Positions 1-4,123 of a stretch of DNA of 53,884 nucleotides are shown here, piece by piece (position 1 is the stretch's first letter; each line of letters starts with the position of its first letter). This stretch comes from Deltaproteobacteria bacterium (GTDB lineage: Bacteria; Myxococcota_A; Polyangia; JAAYKL01). The stretch lies in the NCBI GenBank assembly GCA_030595125.1, contig JAUVDV010000031.1, forward strand, positions 1 to 53,884, given 5' to 3'. A model generated the notes under the pieces. The model was given only the letters and a program-made list of their open reading frames with translations. It was not told the DNA's origin and ran no database searches. The position numbers and the translations under genes were made by a program.

Positions 1-211
1 GCGAGATGTGTATAAATTCTGGGCGGTTGGGGACACGAACAGCCGATTTTCGTTCATTTTCGCGCTTCGGAGACCAGTGATTCAATGTACAAATAAATAC
101 AAAACGATCAACATGGCTTGTTTTGAACGATTGAAACAGCCTGGAACGGCTTGCATGGTTTTCGCTGTTATGAAAAAAATGCACAGTAGATTCCACGGGA
201 GCGAGATTGCC

Positions 212-1192
212 ATGAAAACGATTTGCCTTTGTTTTACGCTTGTCACAATTGGGTTCTTTTCCGGGTGTTCTTCTTCCGATCCGGACAGGTCAGTCACCGC
301 ATCCAACGATATGGAAGCCAGAAACGTGCCGCCTCCCATGACTTTCGAGGGTCCGGGGAAGAAACTGCCCACAAAAATCGATAACTGGGAGATCTCCTCC
401 GCCCCAAGGTATTTCGGGGCGGACAATCTGTACGACCTGATAAACGGTGGCGCGGAGATTTACGTCCAGTTCGGCCTGAAGAAGATGGTAACCTCCGAAT
501 ACCGCTCTCCTTCCATCAAAAACACGGCTGTCACAGTGGAGATCTACGACATGGGATCCCCCAAAGGCGCCTTCGGCAGGACCGCGCGTTTTCTCGACGG
601 TCTTCTGGATCCCTCCGGCGTGGGCGAGGGCCTCCCCTCCCCGCTCTCGAGTAAAAGCATTCTCGGCGACGGGGACATGGTCACCTGGAAAGATCGTTTC
701 ATGATCCACCTTACCCTGATGGACGAGAGCCCCACCGCATCGGGCGAATCAATTGCGTTGGCTGGAAAAAAGATTCTTCCGCTATTTGCCGCCACCGTGT
801 GCGCCAAGATCGAGAACGATCCTCCCCCGCCGGCGATCTTCGGTCTCTTTCCCGTGGAGAAAAAACTCTCGCGCTCGGAGGCGTGGCACCCGGAGCATTT
901 GATCGGAGTAGACGGTTTGGGGGCCGGCTATACCGTCCGGTACGTCGACGGGGATCTGGCCTGGATAGCGTTCGCAACCGAAGAATTAACGGACGAGGCT
1001 ACCTCGAAGTCGGCGTGGGAGTCGGCAAAGGGAGCCGACGTGGAGGGTCGGGCCCTCGTGTTGAAGGTAGCGGGCAAGCACGTGGTAGGAATTATCCAGG
1101 ACGGCAACGAGCCCCTCGGCGACAAGCTCATCGATGACCTCGCCGCAACCCTCCTCGCAAGCTTCACGTTGGGGTCGCAACCCTCCACTTGA
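212..1192 (+). CDS. DUF6599-like lipoprotein, unknown function
   Basis: A 326-residue protein. The open frame continues upstream, but I chose the ATG at 212 because it opens a lipoprotein signal (MKTICLCFTLVTIGFFSGCS, Cys about residue 19). The mature part carries the pattern I associate with the DUF6599 family: NLYDLINGGAEIYVQFG (about residues 71-87) and a YDMGSPKGAFG stretch shortly after. Its function is not known. The protein is probably anchored in the outer or inner membrane facing the periplasm. The last residues (GSQPST) and the stop codon lie inside the left inverted repeat of the neighbouring RAYT element, so its C-terminus is probably element-derived. Confidence is high that it is a gene, moderate for the family name. 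Confidence 0.82.
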   Translation: MKTICLCFTLVTIGFFSGCSSSDPDRSVTASNDMEARNVPPPMTFEGPGKKLPTKIDNWEISSAPRYFGADNLYDLINGGAEIYVQFGLKKMVTSEYRSPSIKNTAVTVEIYDMGSPKGAFGRTARFLDGLLDPSGVGEGLPSPLSSKSILGDGDMVTWKDRFMIHLTLMDESPTASGESIALAGKKILPLFAATVCAKIENDPPPPAIFGLFPVEKKLSRSEAWHPEHLIGVDGLGAGYTVRYVDGDLAWIAFATEELTDEATSKSAWESAKGADVEGRALVLKVAGKHVVGIIQDGNEPLGDKLIDDLAATLLASFTLGSQPST

Positions 1193-1200
1193 CATATAGC
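1171..1200. repeat. Left inverted repeat flanking the RAYT gene
   Basis: Thirty bases beginning GGGGTCGCAACCC and ending TTGACATATAGC. The reverse complement of 2120-2149 matches it at 28 of 30 positions by eye. It contains the stop codon of the DUF6599-like gene (1190-1192). Confidence 0.85.
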
Positions 1201-1202
1201 CC

Positions 1203-2096
1203 CTACCACGCATCAATCCAGGCACCCAACTGCTCTTTACTTGCACTCATCCGCCGAAGCACATGACCTACCTGACTAGTCGACATCCCCAACAACTTCT
1301 CGATCTCTCCATGCGACATCTGTGTTCGATCATTCAGAGCCCATACCGCAAAACGACGTTCCGGATTCGCCCTTGGGCCGCGCTCCACTTTGCACAACCT
1401 CACCATATCCGCGCCGGTGATCTCACAAATCCTTTCCGTCGCTGCCTTCACCGTCAAGAACCTGGTCTCGACGTTGAGGCCCTGCTTCTTCATAGCTCGT
1501 TCCCCAGTCTCTTTTAACCACCCACTGTCCATGGCCATCTGCTCAGGCCATGTAAGCTTTCCCCGATGCATATCCAGAACATATCCATGAAGCGCATCCG
1601 AATCTTCGAAAACACTCTCGAAATAGCCCGTATTCAGCCATCCGGGCGCCGTATCCCTGCCGAGATAAACCCGGTGACTGGACCAGGCGTGGGATTGAAG
1701 CCTTGTGATCAGACCGGCCTTCAGAGGATTCAGGTGGATGTATGCCAACAGGTAAGGAAGGGTTGTCTCATCCTCTATCAACTGGCTTCGAAATCGGCCC
1801 TTGAACACAGGGCCATCCCACTTCTCCAACCAGTTGACGCGTTGGGTGTAGGTTGCATTGAGTCGCTTCATCGCCAAAGAAAGATTTCCGTGTCGGGAGC
1901 GGACAAGCAGGTGGTAGTGGTTGGGCATGAGAGAGTACGCATGGACTTCCAGTTCGAACGCTTGGACGACCTTCTCAACAATTTCCAGGAAAAAGTGGCA
2001 GTGGGCATCTTTCTTGAAAACAGGGGCCTTGCGCGCACCTCTATGCATGACGTGGTGCCATGCTCCAGGGAAATCTATTCTTGGTTTTCTGGACAT
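1203..2096 (-). CDS. REP-associated tyrosine transposase (RAYT, Y1 family)
   Basis: A 297-residue HUH single-strand transposase of the TnpA-REP type, a family thought to cut and move REP/BIME palindromes. The N-terminus (PRIDFPGAWHHVMHRG) is typical of the family. The HUH motif is NHYHLLV (about residues 58-64), and the catalytic Tyr candidate lies in NATYTQRVN about 30 residues later. It is followed by PVFKGRFRSQLIEDE and a YIHLNPLKAGL block. The C-terminal ~90 residues look like a DnaA-type helix-turn-helix (MSHGEIEKLLGMSTSQVGHV). The gene looks intact. It sits alone between 30-bp inverted repeats that also end the two flanking genes. The start has no convincing ribosome binding site. Confidence 0.92.
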   Translation of the reverse strand: MSRKPRIDFPGAWHHVMHRGARKAPVFKKDAHCHFFLEIVEKVVQAFELEVHAYSLMPNHYHLLVRSRHGNLSLAMKRLNATYTQRVNWLEKWDGPVFKGRFRSQLIEDETTLPYLLAYIHLNPLKAGLITRLQSHAWSSHRVYLGRDTAPGWLNTGYFESVFEDSDALHGYVLDMHRGKLTWPEQMAMDSGWLKETGERAMKKQGLNVETRFLTVKAATERICEITGADMVRLCKVERGPRANPERRFAVWALNDRTQMSHGEIEKLLGMSTSQVGHVLRRMSASKEQLGAWIDAW

Positions 2097-2119
2097 TTGG
2101 GGTTTCTATTCAAACCGAA

Positions 2120-2149
2120 GCTATATGTCAAGTGGAGGGTTTTGACCCC
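2120..2149. repeat. Right inverted repeat flanking the RAYT gene
   Basis: Imperfect inverted partner of 1171-1200 (two mismatches, AA for GC in the GGGGTC-NN-AACCC part). It contains the stop codon of the MFS gene (2128-2130). Confidence 0.85.
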
Positions 2150-3378
2150 ATTTTCGATGTCGCGAACATCACGATTGCTACCAGGAGACCGAGCGCGGCG
2201 ATCGGCCAGAACTCACCACCGGGGCCATGAGTCTCTACCGTGTCGACCGCGAAACCCAAAATCGGGGCGATCACCGCAGTTGCGAGGCTCTTTCCCTGGC
2301 TCTCGATCGATAGCACGGTTGCTCCGTGACTCTCGGAACTGTGGGCGTCGAAGCGGGATATGAGAACCGGGCGCCAGAAGTTCTGCATGACGTGCAGAGC
2401 AATGAATCCGAGGATGACAGCCCACTCGATCGACAAGTACATCACCGGAAGAAGCGCGGCGAAAACGAGCGCATTTATCGCCCACAGGTAACGGGCCGTG
2501 CGATCCTCTTTTCCGTACAGTGAAACGAGACGATGGGCGTTGCGACTTGCCGCCGCAGAGAGCGCGTAGAGAACAAAAAATACCGGGCTTATGAGCACGG
2601 CGGCCTGCTGCGGCTCGGTCCAATCATTGTCGGCGAAACAAGACCCGATGAAGAGGACGGCCGATGCCTTGAGGACCGGCTGGACGTAATCCTTCGCGGC
2701 CTTGAAGACCCCTTCGAATCCCATCGACTCGGCTATTAGCCTGCGGATGGCGGACTCCCGGATCGCTGCTGTGAAAGCCTCCCTGAGGTGACTCGCGGTT
2801 GCTCGAAGCGACGCGTCCCCTACCTTCGGGCCGTCGAGTTCCACGGGGTAGAAGAGGAAGTTAACAATCCCGAGTACGTACGGGACGATGCAGACATAGA
2901 AGATGTAAACGTAGCCTTCGCTTGCGAAAACGAAGACCCCCGCGAGGACCACGGACACGGCCGATCCGATCTTGCTCCATGAGCGGGTGATCCCGTAAAC
3001 CTTCGTGCGCTCCTTCTCCCGTCCCTGCAGGCGTAACCAGGTAAAGATCATGGCCTTGTGGGTCCCCGTGCGAAAGGCGTCACCTATCGCGAAGAAGAAC
3101 ATCGCCGCGAAGAGGAGCCACACGCTCTTTGAAAGGCCGAAGATGGCGAAACTAAAAATGTAGGCGGTGAAGGAGAGAATCATCGACTTGCGCCGTCCGT
3201 AAACGTCGGCCATCGCGCCGGAGGGGATCTCGAACAGGTTGGCCATGATCTCGCGGAAACCGTACAGAAGACCGATCACGGAATAAGAGAGCCCCTTATC
3301 TACGAGCGCGAGTAAAAGAAACGGCTCGTAGTACTGCTGATTCTTGAGAAAACCGTAAAGACAGAATCGCCTGAGCAT
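2128..3378 (-). CDS. MFS transporter
   Basis: A 416-residue polytopic inner-membrane protein of the major facilitator superfamily. After MLRRFCLYGFLKNQQYYEPF comes the conserved loop 2-3 signature as IPSGAMADVYGRRKSM (about residues 49-64). About twelve hydrophobic segments can be counted across the protein, with a longer charged central loop. The substrate cannot be predicted. The frame stays open upstream to 3465, but the start at 3378 avoids overlap with the preceding lipoprotein gene and begins at the usual distance from the first membrane helix. The final residues GSKPST are encoded by the RAYT right inverted repeat, so the original C-terminus has probably been replaced. Confidence 0.85.
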   Translation of the reverse strand: MLRRFCLYGFLKNQQYYEPFLLLALVDKGLSYSVIGLLYGFREIMANLFEIPSGAMADVYGRRKSMILSFTAYIFSFAIFGLSKSVWLLFAAMFFFAIGDAFRTGTHKAMIFTWLRLQGREKERTKVYGITRSWSKIGSAVSVVLAGVFVFASEGYVYIFYVCIVPYVLGIVNFLFYPVELDGPKVGDASLRATASHLREAFTAAIRESAIRRLIAESMGFEGVFKAAKDYVQPVLKASAVLFIGSCFADNDWTEPQQAAVLISPVFFVLYALSAAASRNAHRLVSLYGKEDRTARYLWAINALVFAALLPVMYLSIEWAVILGFIALHVMQNFWRPVLISRFDAHSSESHGATVLSIESQGKSLATAVIAPILGFAVDTVETHGPGGEFWPIAALGLLVAIVMFATSKMGSKPST

Positions 3379-3400: not shown

Positions 3401-4030
3401 TCAGGCCATTGGCATGCAAACGCCTTCGCCGCTGGTAGTGCTATTAATGGGGGCACACCACTCACCGGTGGGACACGTTATCTGGTAGTCGGAGCACGAG
3501 GCGAAGCAACCGTACTTCGTATTTCCCAGAGTATCTGTGTACGTGCAGCAAGTTCCCGTGACACACGCATCGATCTCGCAGTCCACCGGCCCGTGGTCGG
3601 GCATGCCGTTGCAAACTCCCCCCGCGGTTCCGGCGGGAACGCAGGCGCCGTCGAACCCCTCGATGGTGGTACAGACTTCGGGGACGCAGTTGTCCAGGCA
3701 GTGTGGATCGGTGGCGTCGGGCCAGGTCACGCACGTGAGATCGACAGTGTCGCAGGAGTCTCCCACATCGCAACATTCCTGGAGGTGCTCCCCACAGTTG
3801 GGGTCATCACCGGTATCGGTATCTGTGCCCGCATCGTCATCGGTGTCGGTGTCGGTATCCGAATCGGTATCAGTATCGGTATCAGTGTCCGTATCTGTAT
3901 CCGTGTCGGTATCGGTGTCGGTGTCAGTGTCTCCTCCCGTATGCGAGGTGCTGTTTGCACAGGCCGTCATCCACAGGAAAAAGGCCGACGCTGATACCAC
4001 TACAAGCCAAGAAATATTTCTAGCACTCAT
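3401..4030 (-). CDS. Thr-Asp-repeat, Cys-rich lipoprotein
   Basis: A 209-residue predicted lipoprotein. The start at 4030 has a good site (AAGGAG, 7 bases before ATG). The signal peptide ends in LWMTAC. A low-complexity Thr-Asp spacer of about 45 residues follows, then a cysteine-rich domain (GEHLQECCDVGDSC and VTGTCCTYTD) with about sixteen Cys. Such acidic-linker Cys-rich lipoproteins are common in Myxococcota-like genomes and are presumed to be surface proteins; the function is unknown. The repeat is encoded by a GAY-ACN hexanucleotide tract, so its length may vary between strains. It lies downstream of the four-gene membrane operon on the same strand, about 90 bases away. Confidence 0.85.
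   Translation of the reverse strand: MSARNISWLVVVSASAFFLWMTACANSTSHTGGDTDTDTDTDTDTDTDTDTDTDTDSDTDTDTDDDAGTDTDTGDDPNCGEHLQECCDVGDSCDTVDLTCVTWPDATDPHCLDNCVPEVCTTIEGFDGACVPAGTAGGVCNGMPDHGPVDCEIDACVTGTCCTYTDTLGNTKYGCFASCSDYQITCPTGEWCAPINSTTSGEGVCMPMA
3805..3935. repeat. Hexanucleotide tract encoding the Thr-Asp linker
   Basis: An approximate 6-bp repeat (GGTGTC/GGTATC on the plus strand) coding for alternating Asp and Thr on the minus strand, with a few Ser, Ala and Gly interruptions. Confidence 0.8.
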
Positions 4031-4123
4031 GTTTGTTCTCCTTACTTTCCGTTCTTCTATATGTCCATTTTCCAACATTACGGGCCGATGCGCAATCAAT
4101 AGTGGAAAGGGGCGCGGATGGGG

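Follow-up and report, generated by a model that had tools for sequence, protein, structure and literature searches.

The element and its flanking genes

The window (the whole stretch of 53,884 bp analysed here, from an uncultured deltaproteobacterium) carries at positions 1170-2150 a 981-bp element, in which one Y1/HUH transposase gene lies between 31-bp inverted ends (TIRs) of sequence TGGGGTCAAAACCCTCCACTTGACATATAGC. The left TIR (1170..1200, plus strand) reads TGGGGTCGCAACCCTCCACTTGACATATAGC, and the right TIR (2120..2150) is TGGGGTCAAAACCCTCCACTTGACATATAGC on the minus strand. These arms of 31 nt are 94% complementary, and inverted-arm matching across the window gave 2 real matches against 0 in 100 shuffles, with none expected by chance. 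The transposase gene (1203..2096, minus strand) codes for a RAYT or TnpAREP-like Y1 HUH protein of 297 aa, with NHYH and AYIHLNP motifs and a DnaA-like C-terminal domain, and its start codon is 53-54 bp from the edge of the right TIR. The neighbours are a DUF6599 family gene on the left (209..1192, plus strand) and a convergent MFS transporter gene on the right (2128..3378, minus strand); a Pfam search confirmed the families of all three genes. Just upstream of the MFS gene, the ORF at complement 3401-4099 contains a low-complexity Thr/Ser-Asp repeat (DTDTDT..., window 3811-3960).

Both flanking genes have their 3' end inside a TIR. The DUF6599 ORF has the C-terminus ...SFTLGSQPST, its last six codons (GSQPST) and its TGA stop (1190-1192, ending at 1192) being contained in the left TIR, and the MFS ORF has the C-terminus ...SKMGSKPST, with the last six codons (GSKPST) and the TGA (2128-2130, the stop thus reaching 2128) in the right TIR. 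The gene ends read ...TTG GGG TCG CAA CCC TCC ACT TGA on the plus strand for DUF6599 and ...ATG GGG TCA AAA CCC TCC ACT TGA on the minus strand for MFS. Both genes thus stop at the same position of the repeat, the TGA occupying bases 20-22 of the end (counting the first G of GGGG as 1). The 31-nt arms and the shared TGA position bear out the observation of the first-pass annotation that the two similar tails derive from one repeat, present once in inverted orientation. Read inward in its three phases, the end gives a TGA after six sense codons, a TAG slightly later, or no stop at all, and a stop is reached within 30 bp in two of the three phases.

The same annotation had suggested that the element perhaps also ends transcription, which finds no support here, as no terminator-like site is present at either end of the window element. 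With ends 919 bp apart, no short hairpin of the MITE kind is possible either. On the minus strand of window 2085-2139, a TTGACA in the end faces the RAYT gene and is followed 17 nt on by TAGAAA, just before the ATG; going by these motifs, a putative promoter with a very short leader is possible, and a sigma-70 consensus scan of the RAYT-upstream end gave no match despite the TTGACA.

Identity of the transposase

The RAYT matches the Pfam family Y1_Tnp (E=1.1e-9) and the NCBIfam family REP_Tyr_transpos (E=1.1e-19, at 70.7 below the family cut-off of 80). Residues H60, H62 and Y119 are invariant among 20 relatives, and the protein is similar to the TnpAREP structure 4er8 both by profile match (E=1.6e-5) and by Foldseek (1.6e-8). 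Positions 211-296 give a weak profile match to DnaA chains (E=0.003), the structural model has helices throughout 216-296, and no Pfam HTH family matches the protein. In most relatives, GGGGTC ends are located 45-55 bp before the RAYT start codon. A TnpAREP-like Y1 transposase with a DnaA-like domain and TIRs of the GGGGTC type place the element in the TIRtron/TIRYT group (BMC Genomics 2013, PMC3733652), which corresponds to RAYT group 1, or TnpAREP subclass 2.1 (BMC Genomics 2018, PMC6006769). Three features of TIRtrons were found: a TnpAREP-related Y1 enzyme with H-x-H and the catalytic Tyr, a DnaA-like C-terminal HTH, and GGGGWSAS TIRs at a similar distance from the gene, each window end (GGGGTCAA and GGGGTCGC) matching this motif at 7 of 8 positions.

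Two other identities were considered. GTAG REP or REPIN identity was rejected, the end having no GTAG and its weak single-end hairpin being no better than that of shuffles. An IS200/IS605 element would have multiple full copies and subterminal hairpins, and here there is 1 RAYT copy with TIR ends that form no significant hairpin.

Dispersed copies of the ends

The inner 20 bp of the end repeat, with up to 3 mismatches, occur in 27 copies in the 5.39-Mb genome, against 0 for a reversed control pattern, so that the repeat is found at many places other than the window. Most copies are inverted pairs about 40-145 bp apart (MITEs), facing inward like the ends of the window element, and there is only one full copy of the window RAYT. 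The two MITE pairs tested by folding each form a single long hairpin (z about -12), as in REPINs, in which dispersed inverted pairs of the RAYT end give one long hairpin per pair; a single end folds no better than shuffles (z -0.76). The MITE pairs at C130 and C46 are missing from the orthologous place in the sister genome CSMAG_2956 (hereafter G002), and the RAYT presumably moves both the element and its MITEs. All the genomes compared are draft metagenome assemblies, in which many contigs (L226, L228, L236, L245, L274 and others) break off no more than a few hundred bases from a TIR, and the copy numbers are therefore probably lower bounds.

A second RAYT, 42% identical to the first, is encoded in the same genome (G000:C64, L029 1415-2403) and has its own end type, GGGGTCAGGCCTAGACAATAGAYACTTT. 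This end type has MITE pairs of its own (G000:C136, C144, C173), and the inner portion of the ends differs from one RAYT to another across the family.

Gene ends in relatives with and without the element

An exact pattern scan of named genomes gave matches only in two congeneric MAGs, CSMAG_220 (G001) and CSMAG_2956 (G002). In G002, the DUF6599 and MFS genes are present and the element between them is absent. The DUF6599 orthologue ends there in ASFTEK (aligned ASFT-EK) and the MFS orthologue in MFATASGAHSR (aligned MFAT-ASGAHSR), neither of which is the same as the six residues contributed by the repeat; the C-termini of further MFS homologues differ again. The interval in G002 contains a mechanosensitive-channel-like (MscS-like) gene between the two, so either state at the window site may be ancestral.

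Two further genes show a similar replacement. The UDG gene has its native end, GIL, in G002, and ends with the element in GILRMGSKPST in the genome of the window (G000) and in GLGSKPST in G001. The DUF2520 gene ends without the element in EKLLSGK (G000) and ENLLSGKKTTI (G002), and with it in ENKLGSKPST (G001); being repeat-free in two of the three species, it is most simply read as an insertion in G001. For the genes at C65 and C203, no orthologue turned up in G001-G003. Between the two element-carrying species, dN/dS is 0.12 for MFS, 0.16 for DUF6599 and 0.18 for RAYT, which indicates that all three genes are maintained by purifying selection, and for MFS and DUF6599 the values between carriers are similar to those against G002. 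The four genes DUF6599, MFS, UDG and DUF2520 give before-and-after evidence that the ends of a mobile element can take over the C-terminus and the stop codon of host genes while selective maintenance continues.

Phase of the insertions at gene ends

For the analysis of phase, 173 distinct ends were collected from the window's own genome and its relatives, each flanked by 200 bp or more of host sequence. A gene frame running into an end was accepted on the basis of its codon score against the reverse strand, Pfam, or orthologues, and ORFs of low coding score were excluded. Among the 21 independent genes that read into ends, 16 do so in the phase giving the earliest stop for that end type, where about 7 would be expected (P=7.3e-5 against 1/3); without the two window genes the count is 14/19 (P=3.8e-4). 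The earliest-stop rule is post hoc, having been spotted after inspection of the data. All 10 independent gene ends of the window end type share the same phase, as the first-pass annotation had asked of the copies at gene ends. The favoured phase is f1 for the window type, f0 for GGGGTCTGACC and GGGGTCAAACCTTGA, and f2 for GGGGTCAGGCCTAG; where the first stop of an end type lies in a different phase, the genes use that one (GV, GVKP and RGQA tails). As the favoured phase shifts with the end type, the bias points to selection on the stop rather than to one fixed phase of insertion. The rule is broken by 5 of the 21 genes (M14 and a second G009 gene, Stig1, ThiC and NTP_transf_5). An independent clade for the phase test was also sought; the G022 family yielded 1 RAYT and a phylum-wide pattern gave 4 weak matches, none of which was usable.

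Origin of the shared gene ends

The most convincing explanation, and one that we consider likely, is that a TIRtron with dispersed MITEs re-ended two convergent genes, insertions with an early stop being tolerated and those with a long tail mostly lost. An end would insert among a gene's final codons in an early-stop phase, the gene would lose a few poorly conserved C-terminal residues and gain a short hydrophilic G-S-x-P-S-T tail, and its product would still work; insertions giving a long tail would mostly be removed by selection. An early-stop insertion on both sides in the window leads to two convergent genes ending inside one element. Both the earliest-stop bias and the dN/dS values support the earlier proposal that such an element is tolerated at gene 3' ends.

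The phase coincidence could instead be mechanistic, with a transposase target (purine-rich, AT just before GGGG) that favours one codon phase in GC-rich genes and no selection involved. The host flanks of the 173 ends are purine-rich from -10 to -4 (on the strand reading into the end), with T nearly absent at -5 and T at -1. A target preference thus exists, and on its basis a mild excess of f1 (0.39) is predicted in coding sequences. The excess of earliest stops nevertheless persists when the predicted phase probabilities are used (P=2.0e-4 for 16/21 and 8.1e-4 for 14/19), and end types with their first stop in f0 or f2 occur in f0 or f2, which makes this explanation unlikely. The phase test thus separates selective tolerance from insertion preference, and the phase bias most likely reflects a selective filter on insertions at gene 3' ends.

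Two other explanations concern the locus itself. One ancestral gene or gene pair might have been split by the element, leaving the DUF6599 and MFS proteins as remnants. The interval in G002 does differ, with the MscS-like gene between the two, so a deletion may have accompanied the insertion; however, both proteins align with their orthologues in G002 up to a few residues from the native ends, are encoded on opposite strands and have unrelated domains, and we regard such a split as very improbable. Slightly less credible still is that the element fell by chance into a convergent intergenic gap, into which two open frames ran by accident. REP-like repeats are often located near gene 3' ends, according to the part of PMC3733652 that deals with them, and two phases in three of the window end soon meet a stop, but the orthologues show two conserved frames, each of them re-ended, and the same phase recurs in 8/8 further independent genes of the window end type.

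Comparison with known systems

Like the TIRtrons described in the relevant sections of PMC3733652, the window element has a Y1 HUH transposase with a DnaA-like C-terminal domain and GGGG[AT][CG]A[CG]-like TIRs whose distance from the gene is nearly constant, and its TIRs also form a dispersed repeat family in dimers; GGGGTCAA and GGGGTCGC are each one base off the published form. It shares with the GTAG REP / REPIN-RAYT systems of Pseudomonas and E. coli a single RAYT and dispersed inverted pairs near 3' gene ends. It differs from them in that its end has no GTAG, its single end has no better-than-shuffle fold, and its copy number is in the tens. GTAG REP termini often supply TAG stop codons to flanking ORFs, as stated in a passage of PMC3733652. 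For the BOX repeats of Streptococcus pneumoniae, which are unrelated to the present repeat, the pertinent portion of PMC3049150 lists 36 genes with a stop codon inside BOX, without strong evidence of truncation, and reports no phase test. The enterobacterial RU-1 (PMC2759123) is likewise a MITE-like repeat that has joined the 3' end of a gene past the conserved domain and has taken the place of its native stop; instead of the short tail seen here, it contributes a long reading frame, which in the amidase example amounts to about 34 residues.

Stop donation having been published, in the portions of these sources concerned with it, for GTAG REPs, BOX and RU-1, the principle is known. What the present data add to it is comparative and statistical support, an in-place inversion and junction stutters; the sections on TIRtrons in PMC3733652 and PMC6006769 contain no before/after gene ends, phase analysis, in-place inversion or junction stutters.

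In-place inversion and junction stutters

In G001, the element is present between the same two genes with its RAYT unit reversed (window 1170-2150 compared with L063 2741-3726). The outer end variants have not moved: GCAA is still next to DUF6599 and AAAA next to MFS. This arrangement is explained if the two inverted ends exchanged with each other, whether through homologous recombination or through the transposase; a misassembly is unlikely, given that the contig titles name a k-mer of 127, much longer than the repeat.

An exact tandem repeat of at least 10 bp extends across the outer junction of 46 of the 173 ends (27%). Control positions gave far fewer, 0-4 of 173 in the host sequence and 5-6 within the element (Fisher P between 7e-10 and 2e-11). 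Examples of these stutters are found at G000:C32, C37, C46, C62 and C154, at L160, L162, L166, L205, L220 and L125, and on the MFS side of the window element in G001, where one stutter unit extends the MFS tail to SMGSQKMGSKPST. In the 38 clean cases, the host part of the unit has a mode of 9 bp and is mostly 5-10 bp, and the part taken from the element is variable (about 3-47 bp). Most joints have 0-2 bp of microhomology, which disfavours classical replication slippage. Tandem clusters of whole REPINs plus flanks have already been described (PMC3116915), and the section of that work on REPIN clusters gives no description of partial-end stutters.

A tentative explanation, which we hold to be possible though rather doubtful, is that the stutters are footprints of the transposase. 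A nick made by the RAYT in the host strand, about 9 nt beyond the end, would allow limited strand-displacement synthesis to copy the 9 host bases together with a piece of the end that varies in length, and a tandem copy would remain after religation. If true, this would locate the site at which a TIR-type RAYT nicks and account for both the target preference of about 10 bp and the near-constant host part, and the stutters and the earliest-stop bias would together be genome-readable evidence of how the element acts and which insertions survive. Together with the in-place inversion, the stutters offer testable clues to the action of TIR-type RAYTs on DNA.
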